Source: Haliclona indistincta (lineage: Eukaryota > Porifera > Demospongiae > Haplosclerida > Chalinidae). Taken from it: a stretch of 64,000 bases of DNA. Shown here in pieces: positions 3,160 to 61,041 of this stretch (its first letter is position 1; each line of letters starts with the position of its first letter). The notes beneath the pieces were generated by a model. That model had not been told where the DNA came from. It searched no databases and saw only the letters and a program-made list of their open reading frames with translations. The stretch covers positions 2,179,016 to 2,243,015 of the forward strand of contig OZ024789.1 of the NCBI GenBank assembly GCA_964017065.1, in the 5' to 3' direction. Both the position numbers and the translations under genes were made by a program.

Positions 3160-3161
3160 GC

Positions 3162-3202
<41 letters not shown>

Positions 3203-4624: not shown

Positions 4625-4686
<62 letters not shown>

Positions 4687-9549: not shown

Positions 9550-26246
<16,697 letters not shown>

Positions 26247-28754: not shown

Positions 28755-30842
28755 ACACCAAGGCGTCACTGGGAGCAACAGTCATCATGAATATCACCAA
28801 CATTGGTACCCAGGGCTATCCCGGCACAGGAAAAACATCAATTCTCGACCTCGCCATGGGGAAAGAGCCAGCCCCTCAAAGGAACAGTACCGGCTGTATT
28901 GATCCACCCTCTCGCTACATGCTGATCAATAGTGAAGCTGATTCCAGTGCAGCACAAGTGGAGTGGGAGAACGTCACTACAGACAAGATGTTTGAAATGG
29001 TTTGTGGAGCAGTGAAGAAGACCATTGAGGAAAGTCCATTGGACAAGGCTCTGGTCCATTCAGACAAGTCTGCACTACCAGTAGCAATAGACACTAGCTC
29101 ACTTGCTGCAAACGACACTGCTGCAGAGTATGACCCAACTCCTGTTGGCAATGAACTGGTCCCTCCTACACCACCACCAGCAGCAGCAGTAGCAGGCAGT
29201 GCTAATCAGATACCAGCAGTAGCCGAGCATTCTATTGATCCAGTGGCTAACGTTGGCTTTACTTGGTTTCCTGATCTGCTCAAAGAACTGTACAGCAGCA
29301 GAAGTTCTGGTACAATCTTCAACTCCCACTGGATGATGGTGACTGATTGTGGTGGCCAACCACCATTTCTGGATGCAGCCGCTCTTTTCCTTCGAAACAG
29401 CTGTCTTCAAATCTTTCCTCTCAAACTCAACGAGCCCTTGAGCAAAATAGCAGAGTTTTCTTATTTCTTTGGTGGCAAGTCTGCTAACTGTGATCAATTT
29501 GATATAGTGTTGAGCAATCAACAGATAATGGAGACTCTAGCCAAGTCTACAGCTTCTATTCAGCCGCCATACACACCGTCAGCAATTGAGTGTCCAAAGG
29601 GAGCTAAATTCACAATCGTGGGCACATTTGAAGACGAGGCACACCATTGCAGTGAAACAGTAGCAGAGAAAGAGACGATTCTCAAACAAGTCCTCGAACC
29701 GTACAAAGCATTCCGAGTGCAGCTGGGTAGCAAGGTGATCCTGCCTATCAATGCCGTCGCCATGGACACCGAGACCAAGAAGGAGCGGACAGAGTCAGCA
29801 AAGAAACTTCGACGACTATTGAAAATGGCAAATGTGACAATGAAAGTAGAGGTAAAGCTGCGCTGGTTTGGGTTTCTCCTGAGCATGCTGACTATAGCTG
29901 AGAAGGATGGTAAAGCCATACTCACACTTAGTGAGTGCTATAGACTCGGAGACTCTCTTGAGATGGACAAATCAGAGACCATGAAAGCAATCCAGTTTTT
30001 CCACGACATCAGCCTCATCATGCATTTTGATACTCCAAAGCTCAGAGACTCTGTCATCATCGACACCAAACCAGTGCTCAACAAGCTCTCTCGACTATTC
30101 ACTCTCTCGTTTCTGGATGAAGATTTCCTTACCGAGCACTACGATGACATTGTCCTTCCTGACGGAGCCAAGGAACTACTCCAGCACCACGGGCGCTTCA
30201 CCCGGTCCGCACTAGAGTCATGTGTTGAGTTCTCTGAGTCCATTCCATTGCAATTCTTTGTGGACATTTTAGAGCACGTAAAGATAGTGGCTGCGATTGA
30301 CCAAACATCAGAGTATTTTATGCCTTGCGCTCTACCCTATGCTACTGAAATGCCTGACTCCTCCCACCCATGGGTGATTAGACTGAGAGTAAGACGAGGG
30401 GTCGACAAAGAGTATGTTCCTATCCCAGTGGGTTATCTACCAGCCATTCTAGTCTTCCTTCTCACTATGTTCCCTGATCGATTTTCTTTAAATCGACACC
30501 AGAGGCAATATCGAAATAAGATCGAGTTGGATTATGGTCCTGGAGGAGTGGTCTGTTTAGTGGAGCGCCACCTTCAACTAGATATATGCTATTCTTGCTG
30601 TGACCGACTTGAGCAGGAGTGCGTGAACATTCGAAATTACGTTTTGGAGTCGATCCGTTTGACAGAAGAAAAGCTCCACATCAGAGAAGGTGCCATCACC
30701 AAGGTGGACTCTTTCCTATGCTCCTGTGGTGAGGGCAGCAGGGTCCAGCACATCTGTGCCTACAACCCTGAGACACAGATTGTGGAATGTGAGGAGACAA
30801 GAGAAGTGTTTGTATTGGAAGCTCATCATCAGCTGTGGCTAG
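28755..30842 (+). CDS. Roc-COR (ROCO-type) GTPase exon, copy A
   Basis: This single 2,088-nt exon (696 codons) encodes a ROCO-type GTPase plus COR region. The P-loop GYPGTGKTS lies at 28814-28840, a switch-I-type Thr in STGCIDPPSRY follows, the switch-II DCGGQ is at 29345-29359, and the fourth GTPase motif is replaced by VGTFEDEAHH. The COR-like winged-helix part follows (KLRWFGFLLSML, LTLSECYRLGDSLEMD, FFHDISLIMHFD, DTKPVLNKLSRL). A Cys-containing C-terminal segment (CSCGEGSRVQHICAYN) precedes the donor. It begins after atattcag in phase 1, and the G from exon 26208-26246 completes the Asp codon. ROCO proteins are usually dimeric regulators of kinases and stress or immune signalling. It is a close paralogue of 46416-48500. 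The nearest Met (28788) could be an independent start if the fusion is wrong. Confidence 0.85.
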
Positions 30843-30894
30843 GTGTGTTGTGATGTAGTCTCTGATGATACATGTGATAATTGTATTGATGTAG

Positions 30895-30984
30895 GAGCAG
30901 CAATAGAGAGCACTGCACACTCTATTCACTGCAGTGACGACACCAGTGACAGTCATGAGCTACCACCACTAGCAGCAGCAAAAA
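30895..30984 (+). CDS. Linker exon between Roc-COR and death domain, copy A
   Basis: This 90-nt exon is flanked by ...gtag and gtgagc and keeps phase 1 at both ends. It encodes an acidic Ser/Asp/His-rich linker (SIHCSDDTSDSHEL). The matching exon of copy B is 48553-48633. Confidence 0.75.
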
Positions 30985-31376
30985 GTGAGCACTGTGTACT
31001 GGTGTGGCTAGGTCAACCTCAGCTGGTATTATGTGGTATCATGATATATGGTTGGTAAACATGTATGTGTGCATGGCTACCATTAGCTCTTACTATACTA
31101 ACAGTGGTTTATCACAACAGCTCTCTCATGTCATAGTTTGTACTCTAGTGTTGCTCCATTATTGCTGGTCATGTGAGTCATATCTTTAGTGTTCTATCAG
31201 CTAGTCATGAGATGTGTTGAATCAGTTGTGTTAGTGACTGTGTTGTTACTGTCAGTACTGATGGTATTATACCAGTAGCTACTACAGTATCTGATGGACA
31301 CACACCATCTCATGATCATGGTAACACTATACCTGTTACTGCTGTCAATATGGCTCATGGTGTCTCATGTGTGTAG

Positions 31377-31687
31377 GTAGTGACACTCCCACTCTACTCA
31401 AGCTGAAGACAATGAAAGGAGCTGATGGTAAACCACTGAAGATAGTTCAAAAGATTGCTGCTCATGACTACACAACATTCGGTATGTGTCTCCTACAAGA
31501 TGAGAATGGAGAAGAGGTTGATCTCATTGAGAAGGACCATGTCAACAAAGGTGCTGAGAGTGTCACGAAGGAAATTCTCAAGAGATGGTTGACAAGTGAT
31601 GCACCTACTCGTACATATCAACACTTGATAGAGTGTCTCAGACAGTCTGATCTGGGTGCACTTGCTGAGCTCATTGCACAAAGGTAA
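31377..31687 (+). CDS. Death-domain terminal exon, copy A
   Basis: The exon starts after gtgtgtag and ends at TAA (31685-31687). It encodes about 103 residues with death-fold spacing: IVQKIAAHDYTTFGMCLL, then VTKEILKRWL, then TYQHLIECLRQSDLGALAEL. Death domains pair homotypically in adaptor and caspase pathways. The intron before it matches copy B almost base for base up to gtagtgacactc, after which the two terminal exons are unrelated at the sequence level. Confidence 0.75.
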
Positions 31688-31999
31688 GCTACCAACAAAC
31701 AGAGTTAACTCGATCACTCGCCAACTCACTCACTTGTTCATCTCTTTCTCAGATAAAGCTGTTCAGTGTCAGATCACTTCATTGTATACCAGCGGGACAG
31801 TTAGCAGTACTGATGTGTGGATCAAGACACATGTACAATAATATTATAACTGTTGTCCATGCTACTATTGCAGTCATGACTTTTTGTTAATTGTATTTTT
31901 CAAATTCATCAATTTGATTATTATTGTGTAGTTAGTTGGTGTAAGTTCTTACTCCTCACAGCAATCTAGTTCAACAACAATTCCCGCGCATTTTTCATA

Positions 32000-32116
32000 A
32001 TGGCAATGTATTCCAATTATGTCTCACCCGGACACGCCTATCCGGCACAGCAGCAGCCTCACGAGAACTCTAAGTCTTGGTGTCAGGACTGGAGGGAAGC
32101 ATGCAGTGCATGCTAG
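32000..32116 (+). other. Short open frame, possible stranded first exon
   Basis: Thirty-eight codons starting MAMYSNYVSPGHAYPAQQQP and ending in a stop. Composition (Tyr, Pro, Gln) looks like a real N-terminus, but no family is recognised. The paralogous stretch near 51770 has lost the ATG and diverged. This may be a broken remnant carried in the duplicated unit. Confidence 0.25.
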
Positions 32117-32159
32117 ATCATGCACTCTCGTTTGAACGACGTACTGTAGTTTGTAGCCT

Positions 32160-34070
32160 CTGTGTTGCCTTCTCTGCTGAAACACTACCTCAGACAATCA
32201 ACTAGACACGAGATTCATCACAGTATCATCAGGTACGCTTGCCTCTCTTTCTGTCTGATTCTCAGCTGTTTTTCATTCTCTTATTCAATGCTGTGTTCTT
32301 ATTCCTTGTTCAATCCAATCCTTGTATGTTGTTCTAACATTGTTCATAAGTGTATTCAAAACATCCTTTTAATTTGCTTGCCTGATTTTCAGTCGTAACT
32401 TAGTATTTTGATATGTTCTTGTCTCAATTACTGTGTGTCAGTCTCACTGACTCATTTCCTACTTGTTCTGACTATCTTTTGTTTTCTTTGCTCAGAGCCG
32501 TGGTTGCTATTTTAGACTCATTCAATTTCAAAGTAACAGAAGAGCATCAAGACTGTGAACCACCAGCTGAGCAACAAGAGGAGAAAGAAGACAATACAAT
32601 GGAGCTGACTACCTCAGAGGATCCACTCCACTATACTCAACACCATCCTACCTGGTCTGGAGTCAAGTCTTACTAAAGAGGTACTAACTATAGAATCTCA
32701 ATTTTAGTACTTGTACTATAGCAGCCGTTGAAACCTAGTTTTCGACTTCTAGCTAGGTGTGCCTTTTCAAATGTGAACCAAAGTTTAAAATACTGAACTA
32801 TTATTAATGATGTGTGATCTGTTTGTAGTCAGAGTACAAGTTTACTCATCACAAGGCTGCAGAGGTGAATGAAGAGGCTGAGATGCTGAGGGTACCAGTT
32901 GCTATGGCAATATGACTAAGCTCCTCCTCCCTCTACCTGAGTCCTCTCTCTCTAGGGTGAGTGAAGGATAGTATGACAGTGTGATGGTGTACGTGTGTGT
33001 GTATAGTGTTCATGGTGTGTATTCCAAGGACTGTTCTGTATGTGGATTAAGTGTGCTGCTGTGTGTTACTGGTTCGTCATTATCAGTGTGTGTATCAATG
33101 TTTCTTTGTTATAAAGTATAGGAGTTCCTGACGTGTGATGGTGTGTGTGTGTGTGTAGGTTGCTTGTGAAGGTGTGTAAGACGCTCAAGAATCGTAGTCG
33201 TGATGTGAGAGCTGTTGCTACTATGCTCAAGATGGCTCACTCTCTGGGCCCACGCCATCTGCAGTACATCGTGAAAGAGCTGAAAGAATCTTTAACAAGA
33301 GGATGTCAGGTGAGAGAGATAGTGAAATTTTGCAATTTAAATTTTTAATAATAATAATTAATAATTAAAAAATTTTAGCTTCATGTACTGGCATACACTA
33401 TCCATCACTTGCTGGAGGGACTCAGCCCCATTCTGAATCTAGGAGACTCGGACTCAAGCCTGGACCTCATCATCCAGGTATTGTCATGACATGTATGATC
33501 ATCTTTATGCATCCTCTCTCTCCCTCTCTTTCATCCTCTCATGCCCAACTATATAGCCCTTGAAGATAACATTGCCGCCATTACTACACACGTGTTTGAG
33601 ATACTGCACGAGAGAGATATGTTATGTTCGCTTTGATTCTAACAGGGTTTGCTGCTTTTAAGGTGAGTTTGTAGCTTGATGGAGCGGCCTAGTCAGTAAC
33701 AGGTGTTGTCTCTGTGTGTTATAGGCAGTGACCACTATCCTTCAGTACTGCACTGATCACACTATCACTGACTCCTCTCTCCCTCTCTCCCTCCCTCCCT
33801 CCCTCCCTCCTCTCTCTCTCTCTCTATCGCAGAGGCTCCTTCATCGTAATGCTGGCTATCTCTTTGTTCATCTGGCTACTCAAATGATCAATGATTCTTC
33901 ACCATATTGTCGACAAATGGCAGCAGAGTCTATCAAGGCGCTACTACAGAGAGTGAGTCACCATCATGTGTTGAGGTGTTGAAGTGTGTTATGTGACTCT
34001 AGGTTGGTAAAGAGAAGAGGAATGAGATTGCTATCATGATAGTGGACTGACATATTCTTTTCCTTTTTTA
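32160..34070 (+). pseudogene. Degenerate UTP20 copy between the two units
   Basis: UTP20 exon remnants in order are LLKHYLRQSTRHEIHHSIIR (32172-32231), AVVAILDSFNFKVTEEHQD (32496-32680, with a frameshift), the exon with VNEEAEMLRVPVAMA (32828-32956, same 2-nt insertion as copy 1), LLVKVCKTLKNRSRDVRA (33159-33309, internal 6-nt loss), LHVLAYTIHHLLEGL (33379-33477), a fragment of IATITTHVFEIL (33558-), AVTTILQYCTDHTITD (33725-), and RLLHRNAGYLFVHLATQ (33832-33951), then a truncated exon. Several exons are missing. It runs straight into copy 2 of the UTP20 C-terminal half. Confidence 0.85.
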
Positions 34071-36567
34071 TTCCAATCTTCAGGCAGTTGTCCAAGCTTT
34101 TCCAGTTGCTGGCAGATCGAAATCAGAGAGGAATACTTTGTCAGATATTTCAAGTAAGCTCAGCTATAATCATCACAAAATTAATCATTTTCCTGGTCAG
34201 ACTATTGGAGAGAAAAATGAAATTGTTAAAGAAACTTCTAGAATCACTACTAAGGTAAGAAACAACACACAATCATCACATTTTAATATTGTGCTACATC
34301 TATGAAGACATAATATTTTTTTAAATGCTGATATTGTTGTCATCTATGAATATCATTATAATAATTATGAGCTGTTTATTATTCATAGTTCAATACTTGG
34401 AGCACCACTCAACTCGAGGAGCCAGACTATGAGCTGAGATTAGACGGCTTTGCTGCCGGCAAGCAACTCCTGCGCTCTGGTCTACCAGACAGCTCTCTCA
34501 TCATCGCCATTCTCCCTATCCTCCATAACGCACTATTCTTTGTTCATCAGGTAATCTGCAAATAATATCAAGTTTTGTTTTTGAGCGTTATTATTTTAGA
34601 CTGAAGATATGTCTATACGTGACTCTTCATCGAGTTTTATATCAGAGCTAATTTCGACTACGCCCATAACCACACCCTCATCCGGTGAGTGTATTATCAA
34701 TGGTGGTGTCTTGTCAGAATCTAATGGTTTGTGTTCCTCACTACAGACACAGACCCATTCCAGTGCCTCGTGATCCACACCCTGGTACCAAGTATCAAAA
34801 GAGGACTACGATCGAAAAGACAAGTATTCTGAATGTCTTTATCATTAGAATTTAATATCAGGTTAATTTTTTGCTTTTGTTATCAGGTTACGATCCATGA
34901 GTTTATTGACCTATTGTCTCGCCTGGTTCGAGGCTATCCCTCACACAAGATCTTCTCTGAGCTATCATCACTCACTAATCCTGACCCAGAGGCCGATATA
35001 CTCCAGAACATTCGTCATATCCAACTGCATCGTCGAACAAGAGCATTACACAGACTCTCTAATGTTATATCAGAGGGCAAGCTCAGTCAAGCGACCCTCA
35101 CTGGTTATCTCCTTCCACTAGCTAGTAATGTTGTGTTCTCTCCTCTGATTGCTAGAGAGCATAACCTACTATCAGAGGCTGTCAATGTCCTTAGTGCAAT
35201 GGCTGGTCAGCTGCAGTGGAGTGCCTACTATCATCTACTGAAACACTACCTCAGACAACTATCAACTAGAAAAGAGATTCATCGTAATATTATCAGGTAT
35301 GGCTTCATGACTGCTGGGCAGCTGGCCTTGTTTTTATCTCTGCTATTGCTGGAAACACTTTGCTTGCTTGTGCCTGTTAACCATTACATACCTATACTTA
35401 TACCATGTTTATACTGGATGTATAATGGCACGGCACTGTGGAACAACAAGATGCTTATTTCTGACTCATCCACCGGATGATCAATGCGGACCTAAGTCAG
35501 ACTAGCCCTCCTGTTTCCGCTACAAAAGTGGGGTGTGTTGTGCCAAGACGTGCCATAGGGCAGGTTCAACAGCTTGACTCGGCTCAGCACACGTTATCAG
35601 GTGTTTACACTAGCGATGCTATGCTAGCTGTGCTAACCCGGTTATTATTTCTAGTGTAGACACGGTATTACTGTGTTTTGACTTGATTCTGCTCATTCTA
35701 TTATCTTGTTTGCTCAGAGCCGTGGTTGCTATTTTAGACTCATTCCATTTCAAAGTAACAGAAGAGCATCAAGACAGTGAACCACCAGCTGAGCAACAAG
35801 AGGAGGAAGAGAATGACGAGGATGAGAAAACAGAGAATGAGACTTCAGCTAGCTCACTACCTCAGAGGATCCACTCCACTATACTGAACACCATCCTACC
35901 TGGTCTGGAGTCATGCCTCACTAAAGAGGTACTATTGACCAGTCTATTCAGAAGAATACTGTTTGACTTCCGGCTGCCTTTTCAAATAATACTGGATGAT
36001 GTTATAACTTGATATGTGTGATAATAGTTTTATTATGTTCTGTTTGTAGTCAGAGTACAAGTTTACTCATCACAAGGCAGAGGTGAATGAAGAGGCTGAG
36101 ATGCTGAGGGTACCAGTTGCTATGGCAATGACTAAGCTCCTCCTCACTCTGCCTGAGTCCTCTCTCCATGCCTATCTACCAGGGTGAGTGGAGGATATTG
36201 TGATGGTGTGACAACGTGATGGTGTGTGTTGTGTGTAGGTTGTTGTTGAAGGTGTGTAAGACGCTCAAGAATCGTAGTCGTGATGTGAGAGCTGTTGCTA
36301 GAGACACACTGCTCAAGATGACTCACTCTCTGGGCCCACGCTATCTACAGTTCATCGTGAAAGAGCTGAAGGAATCTTTAACAAGAGGCTATCAGGTGAG
36401 AGCGATAGTGAAATTTTGTAATTTATGGTTTCTTAGCTTCATGTACTGGCGTACACTATCCATCACTTGCTAGAGGGACTCAGCCCCATTCTGAAACCAG
36501 GAGACTTGGACTCGAGCCTGGACCTCATCATCCAGGTATTGTCATGACATGTACATCTATCATCGTC

Positions 36568-36569
<2 letters not shown>

Positions 36570-36628
<59 letters not shown>

Positions 36629-36645
36629 TCCCTCTCCCTCTCCCT

Positions 36646-36708
<63 letters not shown>
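36570..36708 (+). repeat. CT/CCCTCT microsatellite at an intron 3' end
   Basis: This is the copy 2 counterpart of the tract at 2728-2996. It ends at the acceptor of exon 36709-36867. The inner part is a CCCTCT hexamer run that copy 1 lacks, so the two tracts evolved independently after duplication. Confidence 0.92.
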
Positions 36709-38249
36709 GTGTTATTGGATGATGTGTTTGGTACACCAGCTGAGGAGAGGGAAGCAGTAGTGTTCAAGATTCCTGAGAGCCGCTCTCAAAGCTTGAACTC
36801 ATTTGAGCTACTGGCTCGTTTTCTCTCACCCACTCTATTGCCTTCTCTACTAGAACCAGTCAAAGAGGTGTGCTTGTGTGTGTGTGTGTGTGTCTGTCTG
36901 TCACTCTCTCTCTCGTAGATGTTGCAGGCTCATCTCAGCTCTAAGGTAGCTACACTGGTAGAGGAGGTGTTTCGTTGAGCAGGCTATGGTGTGTTGAAGA
37001 ACACATCATTCACAGTAGAGACTGTGCTGGTGTTTGTGTATAAACTACTCAACAATACTGTAGCTCAACAAACAAGGTATGTGTCAGCCTCACAACCAGA
37101 CCATATTGGACAGGTACACACACGAGTCAACATGTCCGGATATTTATGTTTGGGAGTTGTGTAGCGGCCTGCTCACGTCCTGGCTGTGGCCTGTAACAAT
37201 ATTTTCTCATCCTCAGACCCAAACCAGGTCCTCTGGTGTCTAGTGCAGTAGCTGGGTCTCGTCCTCCTGACTGTAGACTCCTCTCTCCCAACCCATCACG
37301 TATCAAGCCATGCAGGACAGCAGCAGCATCAGCTGAAGGCAGTGTTCCTGGTCACATCAGCACCATCACTATGGGCTTTGCTCTACATGTTAGTAGCAGT
37401 ACAGTATGATCATATTGTATCACTCACTACATAGCTTCTCCACTCCACTCTCAAGAGAGCTACTAGCAAGATGGACTCATCCTCAGCTCAGACCCAACTG
37501 GAGATGCTGGACCCATTTGTACTACTCCTCACTAACTCATTGACCAGCTCACAAAATGTCAAGCTACTCTCTCGCTCACTCCACTGTGTGTCTGCTCTGC
37601 TGCGCCTTCCTCTACCAGCTCTTGAGGAGAACATTGCCACCATTACTACACACGTGTTTGAGATACTGCAGAAATATGCTCGCTTTGGTTCAGTTGGAGC
37701 TAACAGAGAATTGATCTTTGCTGGTTTTAAGGTGAGTTTGTAGCTTGACGGAGCGGCCTAGTCAGTAACAGGTGTTGTCTCTGTGTGTTATAGGCAGTGA
37801 CCACTACCCTTCAGTACTGCACTGATCACACTATCACTGAGAGTGAATTAAAGATACTCCTCTCATTCATTGAGGAGGATATTCATGACTACCAGCGACA
37901 GAGCACAGCGTATCCACTGCTCAAGGTGAGCTAGCTACACTAGCATCATGTGACCTAGCTGCTGTGTGTAGGCCATATTGAGCAGGAAGCTGGTAGTGAA
38001 GGAGATGTATGATGTGATGATGAAGGTATCAGAGCAGTGTGTGTCAGCTGATAGTGAGACAGTGCGTGGACATGCTCGTCAAGTGAGCTAGCAGCCTCCT
38101 CATGTACTAGCTCATACCATGATACTGCTGTTGTAGGCTATTGTACAGTTCATGATGGACTATCCACTAGGAAAGAAACTCAACAAATACTTGGATTTTT
38201 TTGTCGCTAATTTGAAGTTTGTATGGCTTATGGAGTTTGTACATTATGT

Positions 38250-38347
38250 CTTCCTCCCCTCTCTCTCTCCCTCCCTCTCTCCCTCTCCTCCCTCCCTCCC
38301 TCCCTCCCTCCCTCCCTCCCTCTCTCCCTCCCTCTCTCTCTCTCTAG
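38250..38347 (+). repeat. CCCT-rich microsatellite at an intron 3' end
   Basis: This fills the intron before exon 38348-38417 and provides its pyrimidine tract. It is the counterpart of 4585-4771 in copy 1. Confidence 0.9.
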
Positions 38348-38918
38348 CTATAATGATCAGTCTGGTCGTGAGTCAGTGATAGAATCATTGACACTAATCT
38401 TCACTAAATTTCCTGAGGTGACTAGTAGCTAATACCATGATGATGATCCATTCTCTCTCTCCATCCTCCTCTCTCTCTCTCTCCTCTCTCTACCGCAGAG
38501 ACTCCTTCATCGTAATGCTGGCTATCTCTTTGTTCCTCTGGCTACTCAAATGATCAATGATTCTTCACCATATTGTCGGCAAATGGCAGCAGAGTCTATC
38601 AAGGTGCTACTACAGAGAGTGAGTCACCATCATGTGTTGAGGTGTTGAAGTGTGTTATGTGACTCTAGGTTGGTAAAGAGAAGAGGAATGAGATTGCTAT
38701 CATGATAGAGGACTGGTTTATTCATGATAATGTGAGTGGCTAGTACAGTCTGTTCAGTGGCAAGAAGCCACTAAAGCATGCCATCAATAAATTGGCCTTC
38801 ATGAATAAAGCCAGGAGTGTAATGGGGAAGGAACTTGCATGTATATTAATTTTACGTATGTATGACTGTATAAGTTTGGACATGACTATATTAACTACTG
38901 AATACATTATATATAATA

Positions 38919-39332
38919 CCGTAGACGCAGAAATTTTCAAGGGGATTTTATTTTTTGAGGCTAGGATTAACCTCGAAATTTAAATCATCGAATTATTAGT
39001 TCGACAAAAATTAAATCGTCGAATTATTTGTGCAACGAAAATCTATAGCAACAGCGTTTCTGTCTCTTGAATTGTTAGGCTCCAACGCACACACAAGTGT
39101 TTCCCCAACTGCAGTTTCCCAGATATCTTTATATAAAATATGATATCCACGGATACAGAGATCTTTCTGGTACCATGAAACTGTTCCCGCCATTTACGCA
39201 CGTGAAAATTTTCGCTAACAAAATTTTTCGCTGCGATCAAATTTTCGAGAGAGGTGACCACCCTCGAAAATTAGATTCCTTGAAAATTTAACACTCGAAA
39301 TATTTCACCCTCGAAAATTTCTGCGTCTACGG
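38919..39332. mobile_element. MITE, 414 bp, TIR CCGTAGACGCAGAAATTTTC, TA duplication
   Basis: Ends of about 20 bp are inverse copies flanked by TA (38917-38918 and 39333-39334). The paralogous intron of copy 1 retains an empty site near 5581-5590 (ataatagcac) with a single TA. This confirms a clean insertion after duplication. No coding sequence. Confidence 0.92.
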
Positions 39333-39741
39333 TAGCACCGTATGTGTGTGTTCATTAAAAAAACTGAAACTATAAACTACATAGGGTCATTATGGCTAAT
39401 AAGTTATATAGCCTTCATCATGCGATCAATTTACTCATTTTCATTGCAGTTAGTCCACAAGAGGCTGGCCTCTCAATGCATTGGTCTACTCATTGACGTG
39501 GAAGAGCAATCATTTGAGAAGAGGCTAGACACGTTTCTACCACTCCTGTCATCATGTCTCGTGGCCACATCAACCACTGACTGTACTAGCAGGCTACCAG
39601 AGCAGTCAGATAATGAGAGCTGGTCAGTGGTTAGTGAGGACCATCTTCTCTACAACACACTATCAACACTCAAGAAGATCGTCAACACTTGTATGGTAGC
39701 CATGGAAACCAGTGACCACACCTCCATCATCTTGAGTAAGT

Positions 39742-40415
39742 GTGTACTGGGTATGAGGCTATAATGTGTACTGGGTATGAGGCTATAATGTGTACTGGGT
39801 ACGAGGCTATAATGTGTACTGGGTACGAGGCTATAATGTGTACTGGGTACGAGGCTATAATGTGTACTGGGTATGAGGCTATAATGTGTACTGGGTATGA
39901 GGCTATAATGTGTACTGGGTATGAGGCTATAATGTGTACTGGGTACGAGGCTATAATGTGTACTGGGTACGAGGCTATAATGTGTACTGGGTACGAGGCT
40001 ATAATGTGTACTGGGTATGAGGCTATAATGTGTACTGGGTATGAGGCTATAATGTGTACTGGGTATGAGGCTATAATGTGTACTGGGTACGAGGCTATAA
40101 TGTGTACTGGGTACGAGGCTATAATGTGTACTGGGTACGAGGCTATAATGTGTACTGGGTACGAGGCTATAATGTGTACTGGGTACGAGGCTATAATGTG
40201 TACTGGGTATGAGGCTATAATGTGTACTGGGTATGAGGCTATAATGTGTACTGGGTATGAGGCTATAATGTGTACTGGGTATGAGGCTATAATGTGTACT
40301 GGGTACGAGGCTATAATGTGTACTGATTATGAGGCTATAATGTGTACTGGGTATGAGGCTATAATGTGTACTGGGTATGAGGCTATAATGTGTACTGGGT
40401 ACGAGGCTATAATGT
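39742..40415 (+). repeat. 24-bp minisatellite, about 28 copies
   Basis: This array starts within ten bases of the 5' splice site of the UTP20 exon 39450-39735 and occupies nearly the whole intron. Units differ mostly at one C/T position (gggtacgag or gggtatgag), and variant runs suggest unequal crossing over in blocks. The same family at 7705-7887 has under eight units. The long reading frame through it is an artefact. Confidence 0.96.
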
Positions 40416-40744
40416 GATGTGTGTCTCTACTAGGTGCAGTCCAATCATTGCTGGATCACTCTCATGCATGGGTACAGCTAGCATCTTGTCAGTTGATGGG
40501 ACTAGTGTTTGCTGGATGTGACCAGGACGAGGTAGCTCACTCACTAGCCACTAATGCTGAGGAAGGAGGAGCCAGGAACAAGAGAAGAAGATTAGAGCGC
40601 CATTGTCTGGTTGATATGAGCACAGTGAGTGGTAGTATTGATGAGCTGGTCACATGACTAGCTCACTACAGGTGAAGCTACTGGCGAAGGCTTTCCTGAC
40701 TATTCTAAGAGCTCCTGTTCTTGGTACTGAGTTAGCTAACCAGG

Positions 40745-41440
40745 TATGGTAGACTAGTGACTAGCCGTGTTACACTAGCAACTAGCTGTGTTAGACTAGC
40801 GACTAGCCGTGTTAGACTAGCCACTAGCCGTGTTAGACTAGTGACTAGCCGTGTTAGACTAGCAACTAGCCGTGTTAGACTACTGACTAGCCGTGTTGGA
40901 CTAGTGACTAGCCGTGTTAGACTAGCGACTAGCCGTGTTAGACTAGCCACTAGCCGTGTTAGACTAGCGACTAGCCGTGTTAGACTAGCAACTAGCCGTG
41001 TTAGACTACTGACTAGCCGTGTTGGACTAGTGACTAGCCGTGTTAGACTAGTGACTAGCCGTGTTAGACTAGTGACTAGCCGTGTTAGACTAGCGACTAG
41101 CCGTGTTAGACTAGCGACTAGCCGTGTCAGACTAGTGACTAGCCGTGTCAGACTAGTGACTAGCCGTGTTAGACTAGTGACTAGCCGTGTTAGACTAGTG
41201 ACTAGCCGTGTTAGACTAGCGACTAGCCGTGTTAGACTAGCGACTAGCCGTGTCAGACTAGTGACTAGCCGTGTCAGACTAGTGACTAGCCGTGTTAGAC
41301 TAGTGACTAGCCGTGTTAGACTAGGGACTAGCCGTGTTAGACTAGCCACTAGCCATGTTAGACTAGCGACTAGCCGTGTTAGACTAGTAACTAGCCGTGT
41401 TAGACTAGTGACTAGCTATGTTAGTCAGTGCTGCTAGGCT
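40745..41440 (+). repeat. 21-bp minisatellite, about 33 copies
   Basis: Units of the form GACTAGCCGTGTTAGACTAG + T/C fill the intron between exons 40672-40743 and 41463-41784. Copy 1 has only the unexpanded seed (about 8221-8240, tgactagctgtattagtcag). Twenty-one is divisible by three and the unit has no stop in some frames, so long frames exist on both strands without being genes. Confidence 0.96.
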
Positions 41441-41821
41441 ACTGGTACCCCACTCACTGCAGGCTGTTAAGAACTTGGTGTTCATTGGTAAACTACTGTA
41501 CAAGACTAGCACTCAGCTCCATCAGCAATCACTCAGTGATGATAGCAGCTGTGGTGGACCACGGAATGAACTGGATTGGTTGATTAGTGAGATGGGTTGG
41601 TTAGCAAGACAAGAGGCCGGACACCATCCTAAGGAGACCATGAAGAGAACGTGTGTGTTCCAGTGGACGGCAGCTGTTGCCATAGCGATGGGTGAGCAGG
41701 GACTAGGTGAATGGGTGAGCAAGATGTTGCCACCTCTGTACAAGGAACTCAGTGCAGCAGGTGATGTGATGAGCAAAACAGCAGGTGAGAGACAGCTGAT
41801 GGTGTGATATATGTAGCTGTA

Positions 41822-41870
41822 TAGCCTCGTACCCAGGCCTGCTCTAGCAGGAGGCCTGGGTACGAGGCTA
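41822..41870. repeat. Short perfect hairpin, copy 2
   Basis: The sequence is identical in design to 8640-8688: TAGCCTCGTACCCAGGCC against its reverse complement. A decayed half remains in the degenerate copy near 54705-54725. Confidence 0.88.
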
Positions 41871-42365
41871 GATCTAGCTGGTAATATCTGCTGCTGTAGG
41901 AGTTGTGAGCCTGCACCATTTAGCAGAGGAGGTTGTTGATCTGATCAAGGATCAGTGTGGGAAAGAGGTGTTCTCTGTGGCTCACACAGCAGTACATCAA
42001 CAAGCTATTGCTGTCAGGACCAAGAGAAGAACAGAGAAAGCCCTTCAGGTATACAATACTGCTAAAATAAATTTTAACTACCGCTCAAAAATTGATGCAT
42101 TTATCATACAAATTTTGTTAGTAAACTATTAAAATTTACAAGTGAATAGTACTGCACTAACAATACTTTACCAGTGAAGTCACTAGTGGCTCCTCATTCT
42201 TCTCAACTCTCCTCACTGCAGGCAGTCACTGATCCAGAGAGAAGCGTGAGACGCAAGCATCGTAAACACTTGCTAAAGCGGGAAGCTATGAAGAGGAAAC
42301 GTGTTTGTAAACCAGCTGCTCAGGCTCACTATAGTCCATTCTTAGTGAAGAGAGTCAAACAATAA

Positions 42366-42660
42366 TAGTGTGTTAGTGTGATCATCTGATGATATGATGT
42401 GATGATCAGTCAATTGATCGAGTTGATTGTGATGGTTTGGTACTGAGTGTTCCAACAGAGACTGAGCCGTACTGTACTTGTACTGTCAGCTGATAGTAGG
42501 TGGAGCTCATCTAGTAATGAGATTCACAGCATGCATTAATGAATTTAGTTAACCCCACCCATTCCTGTACTGTAGGAGTAAGTCGCCGTCCTAATTTCTT
42601 CTCTGTTCTTGATCGTGGTCGTTACATGCTGATACTTTGTGACCACCTAGCTCTTGATAT
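42366..42660. other. Spacer between UTP20 copy 2 and the kelch gene
   Basis: Matching to the copy 1 spacer ends near 42422. The remainder should hold the promoter and 5' UTR of the kelch gene. No core promoter motif could be assigned. Confidence 0.45.
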
Positions 42661-45600
42661 ATGGCGACTCCTCAGCGTGAGTAGGCGTGTTTGTCTAGAT
42701 ATCAACTGTTAGCTAGTTTCTTACTCCTCACAGCGAACAACAGGTACGAGCCCTATCCTCGTCTTGGACACCAAACCATTCGTGTTGGTAGTAACGTGTA
42801 CATGTGGGCTGGAGCGGTGGACGGTATGCCAAAGGTACACGACAGTCAAGAAAAGAGACGGTTTATATCCTGTGTGGAGGTGTTCCACTCTGAGAGAGGA
42901 GACTGGTCACGTCAGCCAACAAGTGGAGATCCTCCACTGGGAGTGAGTGGATATTGCTGTACTGTAGTGGGTGATGCACTCCACTTCTTTGGTGGATGGT
43001 GTATCCATGGTGACTGCTATCATAACAGTATTCACTCATTGAGCACATCGTCCCTTCACTGGGTGGAGTTATCACCCACCAAATCAGAGGGTGGGGCACC
43101 GATGAGAAAGTGTGGCTGTGGAACAGTAGCATTTAAGGATGGAGAGGAGGACATCTTGTACATAGTAGCAGGGCTTGGTCCTATTCTATCATATCATCAG
43201 CCTGGAGCACAGTATGAAGACGATACTGATCGTGTCAGATGCAATGAGCAGCACATGTTCTCACTGAGTACAAGTGAGTGATACTGTACATACATGTACT
43301 ATAAGTGTTGGAACAGTTTACTAATGTATGTAGAGATAGTGCTTGTGTACTAGCTCAGTTTGTCTATCATTTATTATCACTATGATAGTAAAAGCATGAG
43401 TAATACAAATGTAATTGTACATGTACGTTGTACCATTGAGTGGTATTATACCAGTAGTGGTGAGAGATGATGTCATCACCTCCTGCAGGAGAGTGGAGCT
43501 CACCAAACGTTACTGGACAGCCTCCTCCTCCATTGTCTCAGTTCACACTTACTCCAGTGGCTGAGAGAAAAGCTGCACTGTTTGGTGGTATCAGTGGATC
43601 AGGAGCCGTCAGTGATAACTTGTTGATAGTTGAGCTAAGTAGAGATACTGTGGTGAGTGTTATGAGGATTGTGTGATAGTGTGGGTTATACATTGATCAA
43701 TGGTTAGACCAGCACAAAACACTATTCTACTGTATACAGTTGAGGACAATACAAATTGATGTATCATTGTCATTCTACAATAGTCATGCGTATTTCTAAT
43801 AGTGTGAACTGTGAATGCTTCGTAACGGTAGACAAAACCTCATAATAACCAATAATAATGCTAAGATCCTCTAGCACAGATAATTACTAGTTGCTTCAAT
43901 CATGGAATAATGTCATTGATCGTGTCGTCATCGCTAAATCTTGATAAGCTTCATTCGGTAAGAGATCAAAGCAGGAGCAGTGCTGAGTACTGGCTTACTG
44001 AGATCAAAATAACCTGAAGTGAATTCAAAAGTAAATATAAAACTTCAGATGAATTATTCTTGTTTCTGGGACAGTAGCATCGTCTGTGCTGGACGCAAGA
44101 CACAAGCACAAAATCCGTGACTATCCCGCACATTTCAGGACTTATTATATGAAGTCGATACGTGATGTCTATTATAGGTAGTTGGGCATGAGCACAATAT
44201 TCCGGAATAGATTTGGGAATTATGGACTGGTGCAGGAATAGAATAGTTTTGAGAATTTTAGGAAGAATTCTCAAAGCGACACCCCAAAGTAATTCAAAAT
44301 GTTATGTAATACAAGACTAAAGCAGTGTATTCTGATAGACAGTACAGTGCATTACATGTAGAAATATCAATGATCTTCCAGTACAATGGTCACCAAGCTA
44401 CAAATACAAGAACTGTGTTGCTGTATTGTGCATGGTCAGTTATTATCATACAGGCTTTCTTTTTGAGAATAATAGCGAGAATTTGTCACTAACAACACGC
44501 CATAGAAACAAAACTGTAAATGTACGATCGTTTTGCAATCGTAGAACGACAACAAAAGTTTAGTTTTTATTGTCCTCTACGTACTAGTTAAAGCACCGCT
44601 CCGATTGCTCTACGCAATATAATAGCACGAGGGGCGTGGCGAGAGGCAAATAGAGCACGAGCCGAAGGCGAGTGCCCTATTTGTCTCGAGACACGACCCG
44701 AGTGCTATTATATTGCGTAGAGCACGAGAAGAGCGGTGCTTTAACAGGTTTAGAGTGTGATCTTGTACAATTGCCATTAGGGATACTGCTAGCAGGCCGA
44801 AGACAGTCCAGTATAAACGCTACCATTGTGGGAATTTACGGAATTATACGGAAATCGTTACACGAGCACATGGTGGAAGGTAGCTGTGGACGAGAGCGCT
44901 GTGATTTCGACTTGGGAATATAGGAGCAGAGAATTCAACACCAGAAAAGAAGACGTGTCTTATTTATCTAACTACCAGTGGGCTAAAGCTATGAAGGAAT
45001 CATGAATCAGTGAGGAACGACTTCACCGAACCTCGTGGATGAAAGTATCCATCGAACGTACATCAGCAGTGACGCCGAGCTACTTGCTACGCTGCCATGT
45101 AGCTACTTTCCGGTTTCATCCTGTCTTTGAGTAGCTGTAGCGCCCTGGATAAACCTGACGTCACCTACATTGCTAACGGCGTGGCCCTCCTATCTAGCTT
45201 TCTTCTGGCCTTTTGATCGCTGTTCAAGACACTGAATAGTCTCTGTTCGACATTGTTGTAGTAAAATGAAAGTTGTTTGTGTTTCATCGCATGTATTTTG
45301 TAATTAAATTCACTGCATATCGGCGTGTTAACACCTGGTAGATAGAGCACTGCGGTGGAAAATAGAGCACTGTAGAACAATGGGTTTAGGAAAATAGAGC
45401 ATTGTTTGAACAATGGGCAGTGCGTACTATGGAATATAGAGCACTGTCGGCGCCTTTGATCTTGTATGGTATCATACTCTAATGTACTATAGTTTGCAAG
45501 TTGATTTTCATCATCAATGCTTGATGTGTCACACCTGATTGTGCAATACAGGGAAGCCATGTATAACTGTTATCACAGACTAACCACTATCCTGCAGTGA

Positions 45601-46369
45601 CTATGACAACCAAATTACAAACTACTGTACATACAAATAGCAGCATATTGTGTACAGTGTAATCACATACACTATTGCTAACATATCATGTTATGTGCTG
45701 TGAGCATGTCTGTTATAAAGTGATAGCCCAGGATGAGTCTGCTCTTCCTCTTACCAGCACTGGACCAGGATCAACAAACCTATCAACCGATCAGTGGAAT
45801 GGCCTGAGAGGAGGTTTGGTCATGCTACCACATGTGTGAGTGGTCCACTACTAGTGATAGTAGGAGGGTGCAGTGGGCGCAGTAAGAGTAATACCATCTG
45901 CGACTGTTGGATTGGTGACCTCACTACAAACCAGTGGAAGAAGGTATAGTGTTTGTATCTTCGACACTTTCAAGATTGGTTTGATATTGTATACGTTCTT
46001 CAGCTATCCCTCCCTGACTCTGTGACTAAACGACGCTACCACTCACTTTCTGCTCTACAACTATCACCACACAGTGTGTTACTGGTAATATTTGGTGGAC
46101 AGAGATCACGTGGTTCTGATTATCTATCCCACACTGCCCTCATTGAATTGAGTGAGTACTATCAATGTATTGTCCATGCAGTACAGCAGCTATAGTGAGA
46201 GACACTGGGCAGTGGTACAGGTGTACTGCTGACATAACAGCTCCTTTATCCCTTGCAGTCCTGCAGGATGATGGTGGGCAGTGGGTGGTGGGTAGGATAT
46301 TAGAGGGAGCAGCCTTGGAAGACAAGAGAGTGTACCAGCAGATGTACCGGGAGATGATACAATACAATG
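42661..46369 (+). CDS. Kelch-repeat module (6 exons) of a kelch/Roc-COR/death protein
   Basis: Exons: 42661-42676 (ATG, MATPQ), 42734-43273, 43489-43652, 45758-45943, 46004-46151, 46259-46369. Kelch-type blades are visible as LGHQTIRVGSNVYMWAG, CTVVGDALHFFGGW, KAALFGGISGSGAVSDNLLI, RRFGHATTCVSGPLLVIVGG and RRYHSLSALQLSPHSVLLVI + FGG. This would form a beta-propeller, usually a protein-binding surface. The last exon ends MYREMIQYN in phase 1 and splices to the Roc-COR exon at 46416. With the downstream exons the lengths sum to 3,666 nt (1,222 codons with stop), so the model is phase-consistent throughout. It occupies the same place as the p38 module in unit A. The start exon is short (16 nt) and is the least certain part. 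Confidence 0.8.
43653..44587. other. First part of the 2.1-kb kelch intron
   Basis: No coding similarity or obvious repeat was recognised between the donor at 43653 and the hairpin element starting near 44588. Confidence 0.4.
44588..45480. mobile_element. Dispersed repeat with terminal hairpin, copy 1
   Basis: Inverted arms lie at 44588-44632 and 44700-44744 (words gttaaagcaccgctc, ctacgcaatataatagca and complements). They are followed by a body with cctcgtggatgaaagtatcc and ctgtagcgccctggata. About 600 bp of the same sequence recurs at 53103-53720. Near 45340-45450 short ATAGAGCACTG words repeat four times. No protein is recognised; minus-strand open frames here (about 130 codons) look spurious. 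Confidence 0.7.
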
Positions 46370-46415
46370 GTCAGTTTTATTTACACATGTTTAAAGCAAT
46401 TTTATGCTTTTTCAG

Positions 46416-48500
46416 ATGCCAAGGCGTCACTAGGAGTAACAGTCATCATGAATATCACCAACATTGGTACCCAGGGCTATCCCGGCACAGGAAAAACATC
46501 AATTCTCGACCTTGCCATGGGGAAAGAGCCAGCCCCTCAAAGGAATAGTACCGGCTGTATTGATCCACCCTCTCGCTACATGCTGATCAATAGTGAAGCT
46601 GATTCCAGTGCAACACAAGTGGAGTGGGAGAACGTCACTACAGACAAGATGTTTGAAATGGTTTGTGGAGCAGTGAAGAAGACCATTGAGGAAAGTCCAT
46701 TGGACAAGGCTCTGTTCCATTCAGACAAGCCTGCAGTAGCAGAAACTAGCTCACTTGCTGCGAACGACACTGCTGCAGAGTATGACCCAACTCCTGTTGG
46801 CAATGAACTGGTCCCTCCTACACCAGCAGCAGCAGCAGCAGCAGTAGCAGGCAGTGCTAATCAGATACCAGCAGCAGCTGAGCCTTCTCTTGATCCTTAT
46901 TCTCCAGTGGCTAACGTTGGCTTTACTTGGTTTCCTGATCTGCTCAAAGAACTGTACAGCAGCAGAAGTTCTGGTGTGATCTTCAACTCCCACTGGATGA
47001 TGGTGACTGATTGTGGTGGCCAACCACCATTTTTGGATGCAGCCGCTCTTTTACTTCGAAACAGCTGTCTTCAAATCTTTCCTCTCAAACTCAACGAGCA
47101 CTTGAGCAAAATAGCAGAGTTTTCTTATTTCTTTAGTGGCAAGTCTGCCAACTGTGATCAATTTGATGTAGTGTTGAGCAATCAACAGATAATGGAGACT
47201 CTAGCCAAGTCTACAGCTTCTATTCAGCCGCCATACACACCGTCAGCAACTGAGTGTTCAGAGGGAGCTAAATTCACAATCGTGGGCACATTTGAAGACG
47301 AGGCGCACCATTGCAGTGAAACAGTAGCAGAGAAAGAGACGATTCTCAAACAAGTCCTCGAACCGTACGAATCATTCCGAGTGCAGCTGGGTAGCAAGGT
47401 GATCCTGCCTATCAATGCCGTCGCCATGGACACTGAGACCAAGAAGGAGCGGACAGAGTCAGCAAAGAAACTTCGACAACTATTGCAAAAGGCAAATGTG
47501 ACAATGAAAGTACCGGTAAAGCTGCGCTGGTTTGGGTTTCTCCTGAGCATGCTGACTATAGCTGAGAAGGATGGTAAAGCCATACTCACACTTAGTGAGT
47601 GCTATAGGCTCGGAGACTCTCTTGAGATGGACAAATCAGAGACCATGAAAGCAATCCAGTTTTTCCACGACATCAGCCTCATCATGCATTTTGATACTCC
47701 GAAGCTCAGAGACTCTGTCATCATCGACACCAAACCAGTGCACACCAAGCTCTCTCGACTAATCACTCTCTCGTTTCTGGATGAAGATTTCCTTGCCGAG
47801 CACTACAAGGACATTGTCCTTCCTCATGGAGCTAAAAAACTACTCCAGCACCACGGGCGCTTCACCCGGTCCACACTAGAGTCATGTGTTGAGTTCTCTG
47901 AGTCCATTCCATTGCAATTCTTTGTGGACATTCTAGAGCACGTAAAGATAGTGGCTGCGATTGACCAAACATCAGAGTATTTTATGCCTTGCGCTCTACC
48001 CTATGCTACTGAAATGCCTGACTCCTCCCACCCATGGGTGATTAGACTGAGAGTAAGACGAGGGGTCGATGAAGAGTATGTTCCTATCCCAGTGGGTTAT
48101 CTACCAGCCATTCTAGTATTCCTTCTCACTATCTTCCGAGATCACTTTTCTTTAAATCGAAAGCAGAGGCAATATCGAAATAGAATCGAGTTGGTTTATG
48201 GTTCTGGAGGAGTGGTCTGTTTAGTGGAGCGCCATCTTCAACTGGAGGTACACTATTCTCTCTCTGACCAACTTCAGCAAGAGTGCAGGAACATTCGAAA
48301 TCACATTTTGAAATCGATACGTAAGACAGAAGAAAAGCTCCACATCAGAGAAGGTGTCATCACCAAAGTGGACTCTTTCCTATGCTCCTGTGGTGAGGGC
48401 AGCAGGGCCCAGCACATCTGTGCCTACAACCCTAAGACAAAGTTTGTGGTATGTGAGGAGACAGGAAAAAAGGGTGAAACTTATCATCAGCTGTGGCTAG
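46416..48500 (+). CDS. Roc-COR (ROCO-type) GTPase exon, copy B
   Basis: This 2,085-nt exon is strongly similar to 28755-30842 across its whole length. The P-loop GYPGTGKTS is at 46475-46501, DCGGQ at 47009-47023, then VGTFEDEAHH, the COR-type words LTLSECYRLGDSLEMD and FFHDISLIMHFD, and the Cys segment CSCGEGSRAQHICAYN. The main differences are in the Ala/Pro-rich loop between P-loop and switch II (NDTAAEYDPTPVGNELV followed by a variable Ala run) and in the last ~120 residues. The exon starts after ctttttcag in phase 1, giving Asp at the junction as in copy A. The donor is ctag/gtgtgt at 48500. Confidence 0.88.
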
Positions 48501-48552
48501 GTGTGTTGTGATGTAGTCTCTGATGATACATGTGATAATTGTATTGATGTAG

Positions 48553-48633
48553 GAGCAGCAATGGAGAGCACTGCACACTCTATTCACTGCAGTGATGACA
48601 CCAGTGACAGTCATGAGCTAGCAGCAGCAGAAG
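48553..48633 (+). CDS. Linker exon between Roc-COR and death domain, copy B
   Basis: This 81-nt, phase 1-1 exon encodes the same acidic SIHCSDDTSDSHEL linker as copy A, with three codons fewer. It is flanked by tgtag and gtgagc. Confidence 0.75.
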
Positions 48634-49133
48634 GTGAGCACTGTATATACTGGTGTGGCTATAGGTCAACCTCAGCTGGTATTATGTGGTATCATGATAA
48701 TACAGAGAGTGTGTGATCATGATCAGCTTGTGATGATGGATAGTGACTAGTAAACAGTGTTTACACTAGTAGTCATGTATCATTGGGTACTGTATTACCA
48801 TATAATGGTTGGTAAACATGTAGTAGTGTATGGCTACCACTATCTCTTACTATACTAACAGTGGTTTATCACAACAGCTCTCTCATGTCATAGTTTGTAT
48901 TCTAGTGTTGCTCCATTATTGCTGGTCATGTGAGTCATATCTTTAGTGTTCTATCAGCTAGTCATGAGATGTGTTGAATCAGTTGTGTTAGTGACTGTGT
49001 TGTTACTGTCAGTACTGATGGTATTATACCAGTAGCTACTACAGTATCTGATGGACACACACCATCTCATGATCATGGTAACACTATACCTGCTACTGCT
49101 GTCAATATGGCTCATGGTGTCTCATGTGTGTAG

Positions 49134-49468
49134 GTAGTGACACTCTACTACAAGAAGCTCCTAAAATGAGTAATCTGATGAGTCAGGTAGCTGCTAAGGT
49201 GAAGGATAAGTGGTTTCAAGTTGGTATTCAGCTTGATATTGACACGGCTACACTATCATCGTTCGAAACACAGTTCCAGTGTGATCCAATGAGATGCTAC
49301 ACCAGTGTGTTTGATGAGTGGAAAAGAGACTCCAAGCTACCCTATACCTGGACCACCATCATTGAGGCTCTGGAGTCGAATGCTGTGACTGAAGTAGCTG
49401 TTGCTAATGAAGTACGAGAGTGGCTGGCACACCGTCAACTGTGCAGACCATCAGATAGTGAATTGTAA
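49134..49468 (+). CDS. Death-domain terminal exon, copy B
   Basis: Encodes about 110 residues up to TAA (49466-49468). Death-fold words are VAAKVKDKWFQVGIQLDI, a Leu/Phe spacer, CYTSVFDEWKRD and YTWTTIIEALESNAVTEVAV. It differs from the copy A death exon at nearly every position, although the preceding intron and the first codons (gtagtgacact) are shared. This argues for replacement of the exon rather than gradual divergence. Confidence 0.78.
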
Positions 49469-60409: not shown

Positions 60410-60639
60410 ACCCTTAGACAGGACATCTGTAAAATGTACAACAGAGATAACATTACAAATTTTCTAGACCAGCGGCAGACAGTCTATGTAGACAACACCA
60501 GCATAGGCTTGGTCACTGCTATTATCTCTAGCTTTATGCACCATCTTAATTCTTGACAGTATCCCAAATGGGTCAGAGCTATAATCCAACTGGACATGAG
60601 CATTATACTGAGAACGTGTGTACCATTGCCCAACAGAGT

Positions 60640-60985: not shown

Positions 60986-61041
60986 CAAATGGGCAACAAA
61001 CTGTCCAGCTCCACTGAGTGACATATTGCTAACAAATACAC

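Follow-up and report, generated by a model that had tools for sequence, protein, structure and literature searches.

Two Gene Models Around One Roc-COR Core

The window, by which we mean the whole analysed stretch of 64,000 nucleotides from the sponge Haliclona indistincta (GCA_964017065.1, contig OZ024789.1, positions 2,179,016 to 2,243,015), contains two gene models, both complete, free of internal stops and bounded at their exons by AG/GT splice sites. Each joins a different N-terminal module to a closely similar Roc-COR core and a C-terminal Death exon. The p38-Roc-COR-Death model comprises 15 exons and 1194 amino acids (9550-31687), and the kelch-Roc-COR-Death model 9 exons and 1221 amino acids (42661-49468), with its ATG at 42661. 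Both were predicted from genomic DNA, with exon borders set by hand under the guidance of homology, and would be spliced as follows:

9550..26246, plus strand: p38 MAPK module, 12 exons (PDB p38a 4e-29 on the C-lobe)
9550-9677, 12220-12358, 12418-12476, 12833-12944, 18445-18474, 18636-18683, plus strand: p38 exons 1-6
23694-23820, 23884-23955, 24117-24202, 24623-24811, 26035-26101, 26208-26246, plus strand: p38 exons 7-12
26208..26246, plus strand: p38 tail exon, with a kelch-linker-like tail and a phase-1 donor in place of the p38 stop
28755..30842, plus strand: Roc-COR core exon, copy 1 (P-loop GYPGTGKTS, DCGGQPPFLD, COR-A)
30895..30984, plus strand: short linker exon, copy 1
31377..31687, plus strand: last exon, Death class A (A1 subclass), also found in NACHT genes
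31377..31890, plus strand: extent of the death-A cassette as seen beside a truncated death-B exon at locus L026 (3' end approximate)
42661-42676, 42734-43273, 43489-43652, 45758-45943, 46004-46151, plus strand: kelch module, KLHDC2-like propeller
46259-46369, plus strand: kelch linker exon, which completes the kelch module (42661..46369)
46416..48500, plus strand: Roc-COR core exon, copy 2
48553..48633, plus strand: short linker exon, copy 2
49134..49468, plus strand: last exon, Death class B (Pfam Death under the cut-off)

Self-BLAST of the window aligns 28750-31046 with 46411-48699 at 93.6% identity and 31036-31388 with 48792-49145 at 96.6%, and the length and identity of these matches exclude a chance resemblance. 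In a global alignment, homology begins at the 'TTCAG' of the 3' splice site of the core exon (28755/46416) and ends 12 bases inside the last exon, between GTGTGTAG and GTAGTGACACTC, a 3' boundary that is also present at loci L020, L026 and L028. A phase-1 exon border before the core is common to both models, and the introns of the pair contain a single indel of about 100 bases. The final ~280 bases of the last intron hold 2 differing positions. Over the stretch between 30439 and the core exon's end, by contrast, each block of 60 bases has 46 to 58 matching positions; the divergence of the exon is thus not simply continued through the intron, and the last intron looks to have been homogenised more recently than the coding sequence that precedes it. 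The nearest relatives of the two core copies lie elsewhere, not in each other. The original prediction had described near-identical core exons, linker exons and introns with sharp ends of homology, p38 in one N-terminal module and kelch in the other, and differing last exons; each of these observations is borne out here, and the death exons are not equally diverged along the whole last intron. The extent then given, 28755..49468, is to be corrected in that the genes themselves start at 9550 (p38) and 42661 (kelch).

The identity of the core as Roc-COR is argued from motifs, domain order and COR-A. The motifs GYPGxGKTS and GGQPPFLD, the candidate G1 and G3 motifs of a Roc GTPase, are invariant in 12 copies, and a COR domain follows the GTPase, as in ROCO proteins: COR-A matches the window cores at 1.8e-6 and 2.3e-6, under the curated cut-off, and rises over it in relatives of the same core (for example C7:7411946, at 41.5 bits). 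The kelch propeller matches Pfam PF24681 (2.4e-15; 56.9 bits against a cut-off of 50) and, in the PDB, KLHDC3 (3.2e-17) and KLHDC2 (1.7e-13 over residues 3-326), and Pfam Death matches the class A last exon at 2.3e-7, over the cut-off, and the class B exon at 0.0094, under it. NACHT and LRR domains are absent from the core and end exons of the window by Pfam and from the full models by reading, the joined proteins having been read rather than run against Pfam. The models are distinct from DAPK, as the kinase C-lobe matches p38 and ankyrin repeats are absent (by reading only), and from the LRR-Roc-COR-kinase order of LRRK, as the kinase or kelch module is N-terminal and Death C-terminal.

The kinase module carries both the TGY activation motif of p38 (exon 23694-23820) and a p38 C-lobe, and retains the G-loop and the VALK lysine. 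Its DFG has become GLG and its HRDLKPSN has become HRDLKTSH, with loss of the DFG aspartate and the HRD-loop asparagine, and the p38 paralogues L046 and L047 (C7:2.85 and 3.77 Mb) retain DLG and DLKPSN. Over 465 bases, the ratio of nonsynonymous to synonymous change (dN/dS) is 0.02 between the two paralogues, and 0.60 and 0.62 between the window copy and each of them. On the strength of the lost residues and these ratios, the window p38 is predicted to be a pseudokinase whose constraint is relaxed or altered, and is probably catalytically dead. Paralogue L046 terminates at its own stop, and no end was located for L047; the window p38 matches L046 as far as GTGTATGAAGAGAT and then becomes a tail with a phase-1 donor. 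This tail, ATACAATTACAATGGTAAGTTC, aligns with the linker tail before the core of the kelch copies, ATACAATACAATGGTCAGTTC, with a score of 32, which among 1323 donor-like sites (window and loci L039 onward) is reached only by the p38 tail site itself and the kelch donor, the next-best score being 22. Replacement of the p38 stop by a kelch-type linker end, giving an in-frame fusion, is the likeliest origin of this join. Ten p38 exon matches occur in the genome, and only that of the window precedes one of the 63 listed cores. Within the family, kelch is the default sensor and p38 a single fusion. A frame between p38 and the core (27811-27851) was dropped as an exon; splicing it after the p38 tail leads to a stop.

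Copies, Modules and Last Exons Across the Genome

Rather than two paralogues, as had been proposed, the window genes are members of a large array: the core occurs at no fewer than 63 places (74 matches merged; best 64 of 454 candidates scored), 36 of which are 82-100% identical, 32 of these on contig C7, and COR-A matches occur at 139 places or more (best 150 of 209 candidates scored). Upstream sequence was taken for 50 of the 63 cores, namely 1.5 kb at 30 loci (L009-L038) and 3 kb at 20 diverged ones (L048-L067); the upstream position of a module is here a location, not proof of a single gene. Six types of N-terminal module were identified: kelch at 27 cores, NACHT at 7, Death at 2, and p38, RING and HIRAN at one each, with no module identified at 11. 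The first set contributes 24 cores with kelch exons, one with p38, one with Death (L038) and four with no identified module; the second, three with kelch (by reading), seven with NACHT, one each with Death, HIRAN and RING, and seven with none identified. The RING module shares an open frame of 806 amino acids with its core. NACHT lies in the open frame of the core in three of the seven cases: at C7:10472347-10476345 on the minus strand (L065/L068), a single translation-checked frame of 1388 amino acids reads Death-NACHT-Roc-COR and thus holds two nucleotide switches, and at C6:8.98 and 9.38 Mb NACHT and core share frames of 1707 and 2029 amino acids.

The last exons connect this family with NACHT genes. 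Among the closest relatives of the window class A exon are exons at C7:3.68, C7:4.90 and C1:2.72 Mb, which sit 0.5-2 kb before NACHT exons, identified by Pfam at C7:3.68 (6e-19, together with LRR) and C1:2.72 (1e-20), and by an 83% match at C7:4.90. At C7:2.80, C7:4.93 and C3:8.26 Mb, the open frames of the class A exon and of NACHT are equal in length and the two lie at most 0.6 kb apart, so that Death and NACHT form one frame there. The best 150 of 242 candidates include 20 class A matches of at least 85% identity, of which 7 have a core no more than 6 kb before them, 11 have a NACHT exon no more than 3 kb behind them and 2 have neither. NLR-linked and ROCO-linked exons are both present below 85%, where the counts of exons with neither are too high, as the NACHT list used for context was incomplete (61 of 132 rows, covering all of C7 and C3 and part of the rest, plus the L044 gene). 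A tree of 24 class A exons, which includes three NLR exons and the L065 chimera and omits a short piece from L013, divides into two classes: A1, with seven ROCO exons including that of the window and three NLR exons (support 100/100), and A2, made up of 13 ROCO exons plus the L065 chimera. A clade of ROCO exons only is rejected (log-likelihood 77 lower; approximately unbiased [AU] test, p 0.00024).

Within the family, last-exon class and core history are likewise at odds. Placing the labels A1, A2 and B on a tree of 29 cores, 21 of them labelled and 8 without class left uncounted, with L038 excluded as truncated, takes 9 changes, with a minimum of 2 and a shuffle mean of 7.9; 200 of 200 shuffles were as low, so last-exon class is not clustered with the core. 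Strongly supported branches of the core tree force at least 5 changes for A2 and at least 4 for A1, and in the well-supported nest of L009, L010, L011 and L012 the last exons are B, none, A1 and A2, respectively. At L026, a death-A exon and the stretch after it, which matches the window to 31890, lie immediately next to a death-B exon whose first 81 bases are missing and whose 3' flank is kept; we regard this as a death-exon replacement caught half-way. The view of one GTPase core with exchangeable ends is hence upheld by the module tabulation, and, in the comparison of core and module phylogenies carried out for the death exons, the core tree disagrees with the death-exon classes. The proposed likeness to NLR logic turns out to be more literal than suggested, in that death exons are shared with NACHT genes and NACHT occurs in frame with some cores. 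Taken as a whole, the original observation is confirmed and its interpretation partly supported.

Variation in the sensor was examined in two kelch exons at 24 loci (109 sites). Eleven of these sites reach an entropy of at least 2 bits, against 1 of 701 core sites; the kelch framework is almost invariant, and the sites of at least 2 bits are confined to two short, loop-like stretches per exon, formed by the two residues before HATT or HSLSA and by positions within eight residues after a double glycine:

45815-45820, 45869-45871, 45875-45880, plus strand: hypervariable codons, kelch exon 4
46034-46039, 46100-46102, 46109-46114, 46121-46123, plus strand: hypervariable codons, kelch exon 5

Under a motif rule set after the alignment had been viewed (two residues before H, four after GG; 12 sites), these sites hold 89 nonsynonymous codon types (7.4 per site) and 6 synonymous ones (0.50 per site), against 88 (0.91 per site) and 53 (0.55 per site) at the other 97 sites (Fisher 1.4e-8), counted as distinct codons rather than on a tree. 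Amino-acid change is thus raised about eightfold and synonymous change is not. An entropy-defined version (11 sites with 92 nonsynonymous and 4 synonymous, against 98 sites with 85 and 55; Fisher 7e-11; core counts from 22 copies) is partly circular because its sites were picked by amino-acid variety, and the motif-defined test is preferred. In the alignment with KLHDC2, the variable residues lie beside 'GRSWHS' and 'FGGFTT', and would correspond to positions that hold ligand-binding residues in Keap1 and KLHDC2.

Several further observations concern these modules and their surroundings. Kelch exons 81-83% like those of the window lie at C7:2466144-2547005 on the minus strand with no listed core within 12 kb downstream, and the kelch module may have other partners there. 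Behind one core at L037 stands a tandem pair of class A death exons, possibly alternative last exons. At L036 (C6:12.04 Mb), a Death-like exon (0.00053, under the cut-off) follows the core and is itself followed by a Peptidase_S8 (subtilase) frame (2-724, minus strand; 3.8e-21), and at L038 (C6:2.76 Mb) a second P-loop frame, SYLIGPSGVGKTTTRRRLTG, lies behind the truncated core (4375-4863; Pfam AAA_22 only, 0.002). Just upstream of the NLR death exon at C1:2.72 Mb (L041, 5911-6399), a 2A-like motif, GDIERNPGP, lies in a reading frame. About 80 further Pfam Roc places (C1:0.2-6 Mb, C5, C6, C9 and C10), with frames of roughly 580-1160 amino acids and mostly in dense arrays, belong to a different ROCO subfamily.

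The window is rich in repeats by self-BLAST. Three copies or remnants of a UTP20-like gene (1-9220, about 32000-42425 and about 51700-54800) alternate with the receptor genes, and their longest mutual matches are about 90-95% identical, so that the unit of the array seems to be UTP20 plus receptor. One exon matches SSU processome component 20 in the PDB (6e-22); RRP12 was ruled out as the identity of this HEAT-like neighbour in favour of UTP20. The second copy contains minisatellites at 39741-40416 and 40747-41424 (24-bp and 21-bp units), of which the 24-bp array is far shorter in the first copy and the 21-bp array missing. On the minus strand, frames at 59601-63790 resemble by eye a reverse transcriptase, a recombinase and a zinc-knuckle protein, probably of one retroelement.

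Proposed Receptors and Competing Explanations

We consider it fairly probable, on sequence evidence, that the window genes belong to a large and recently amplified ROCO-type family whose members act as intracellular recognition receptors, each combining a sensor that varies with Roc-COR as switch and Death as effector. In such a receptor, the N-terminal sensor, as a rule a kelch propeller in which some stretches are hypervariable and in one case a dead p38 that possibly serves as bait, would bind or sense a foreign or altered molecule. The Roc-COR core would then change state, dimerise and act as a GTP switch; switching by state change and dimerisation is known from other ROCO proteins. The C-terminal Death domain would recruit the partners that also act downstream of Death domains in the animal's NLRs, with cell death as a putative output. 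Recombination that moves sensor or death exons from one copy to another would generate new receptors, and at least one such swap would have been between a ROCO and an NLR gene; near-identical introns and phase-1 exon borders would ease such exchange. Some plant NLRs carry kinases as integrated decoys, and the dead p38 would fit this role, although a fused copy that is simply decaying is the obvious alternative. More tentatively, and with slightly less than even confidence, NLR and ROCO genes may draw on one exon pool, from which combinatorial animal receptors with NACHT, Roc-COR or both are built, with hypervariable kelch, dead p38 as an integrated decoy, RING and perhaps HIRAN as sensors and Death as effector.

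A number of findings weigh against the receptor reading. Concerning the core, Pfam Roc has no match in the window cores, a PDB profile search gives a weak hit to 4wnr (E 0.49), which we take to be an archaeal Roc-COR, a single-core PDB search and an NCBIfam search give no match, and an AlphaFold model from the two window copies has a mean pLDDT (predicted local distance difference test) of 31 and was not used. Concerning the architectures, NACHT lies near the core in another frame in four of the seven cases, with stops in the NACHT of L064, HIRAN lies 2.3 kb upstream of its core and outside its frame, and 29 of 55 kelch matches checked, from a total of 151, have no listed core within 12 kb downstream. 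Four of the 63 core places contain stops and several are truncated, as is the death exon of L013, and at 7 of 30 loci neither a class A nor a class B exon is present in the 1.5 kb fetched. Few ROCO-NLR transfers would suffice, in that the death tree requires three label changes in all and the seven A1 ROCO exons may stem from one transfer in either direction. Conversion within the core, seen where the nearest copy switches along the exon, blurs the core tree and so inflates its conflict with the death-exon classes, leaving the number of exchanges uncertain and the mixing itself certain. The hypervariable stretches, finally, come from two kelch exons and were defined post hoc, and would equally fit self/non-self or partner recognition unrelated to microbes.

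Recognition of self, non-self or partners (allorecognition, tolerance of tissue or symbionts) would employ the same machine with a different ligand, and both the excess of amino-acid change in the kelch stretches and the large tandem arrays fit allorecognition loci equally well; we nonetheless regard it as unlikely, because the death exons shared with NACHT genes and the NACHT fusion connect the family with NLR signalling, whose role is usually in immunity. A mostly non-adaptive history is judged to be of similarly low probability. Under it, chimeras made by gene conversion and tandem duplication within an unstable region would simply be tolerated, many of them dead or dying, in keeping with the mosaic nearest neighbours along the core exon, the broken or truncated copies, the p38 copy with its lost catalytic residues and dN/dS of 0.60-0.62, and the many repeats of the window. 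Yet 59 of the 63 core places are stop-free in their matched part, and constraint is visible in the core (dN/dS 0.40 over 27 copies, with L011 [stop], L034 and L038 left out; 0.23-0.35 in five of eight 100-codon blocks) and in the linker exon (0.28), while neither drift nor a mutation hot spot yields short kelch stretches with eightfold nonsynonymous and ordinary synonymous change.

Two narrower doubts concern single joins. The p38 module and the core downstream could be neighbouring genes rather than one fusion: a 2.5-kb intron separates them, within which an element with terminal inverted repeats, ACAGTGTTCCACACGAAGAGAGTAGAAAA, was found by eye (26303-26915), and neither of the two close p38 paralogues is followed by a listed core, one of them (L046) ending at its own stop. 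This seems improbable, however, given that the entire p38-core-Death model is open with AG/GT sites and that the p38 stop gave way to a phase-1-donor tail so like the kelch linker (32 against 22). That the death exons are alike through convergence or old shared Death ancestry, instead of exchange, is very improbable indeed; Death-like exons are very common (650 first-look class B candidates) and many NLR-linked class A exons are just 66-87% like the window exon, but the nearest NLR-linked exons have 86-92% protein identity to it, most sister ROCO death exons are 64-76% like it though their cores are about 90% alike, and the AU test against a ROCO-only clade and the truncated death-B remnant beside a death-A cassette point the same way.

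If the receptor reading is correct, an animal assembles intracellular receptors by exchanging exons on either side of a Roc-COR GTPase and has effector exons shared with its NLRs, and ROCO proteins, familiar chiefly through LRRK2 in Parkinson's disease and DAPK1 in cell death, would stand beside NLRs as a diversified animal recognition family. The hypervariable kelch stretches would then be candidate ligand-binding residues, the dead p38 a candidate for an animal version of the decoys integrated into plant NLRs, and the death-A/death-B remnant of L026 an exchange step preserved in place.

Relation to Known Systems

KLHDC2 and KLHDC3 are ubiquitin-ligase receptors for C-terminal degrons, and the kinase of DAPK1 is CaMK-like. 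The window propeller resembles the former two in sequence (PDB 8uxs, 9d1i), KLHDC2 over residues 3-326, but is fused to Roc-COR-Death and has hypervariable stretches. DAPK1 has the order of N-terminal kinase, middle Roc-COR and C-terminal Death in common with the p38 gene, and kelch motifs beside Roc-COR have been reviewed as well (PMC6320773); in contrast, DAPK1 carries ankyrin repeats and a kinase of a type of its own, whereas the kinase of the window gene is of p38 type and has lost catalytic residues, and ankyrin repeats are absent from that gene by reading. Here and below, the comparisons draw on selected passages of the cited papers.

Sponge NLRs of the NLRD type are arranged as Death-NACHT-LRR (PMC12909245), and the same type of death exon precedes NACHT exons in the present genome; the window genes differ in being without NACHT or LRR, with Roc-COR as the nucleotide switch and Death at the C-terminus. 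By word search in the text available, 'roc' and 'kelch' are absent from that sponge NLR survey and from two further sponge papers (PMC12465263, PMC11229196), and 'kelch' occurs twice in PMC6208332. Among the papers listed by full-text searches, with subscription papers and preprints outside their scope, none was recognised by title or abstract as a description of ROCO-NLR exon exchange, and the word 'undescribed' in the original prediction is supported only to that extent.

Sea anemones (Actiniarian) possess NG1, with LRR-Roc-COR-TIR, and NG3, with kinase-Roc-COR-death-TIR, which are likewise novel animal ROCO architectures of immune type attributed to domain shuffling, and which the passages considered do not describe as arrays with ROCO-NLR exchange (PMC5094078). 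In brown algae, ROCO genes with shuffled LRR exons have been proposed as immune receptors (PMC11378527); the Roc-COR core family, the exon shuffling in the sensor part and the proposed immune role are alike, while in the sponge it is entire domains (kelch, p38, NACHT, Death) that change, and NACHT genes share the death exons. The bacterial AP-GTPase-COR conflict systems, with LRR sensors and at least 24 effector types, also combine a GTPase-COR module with a variable recognition part and many interchangeable effectors (PMC8195603), but the present system is animal and its Death effectors are exchanged with NACHT genes. Modular nucleotide-switch receptors are thus a known kind, and it is the exchange between two switch families that is unusual.

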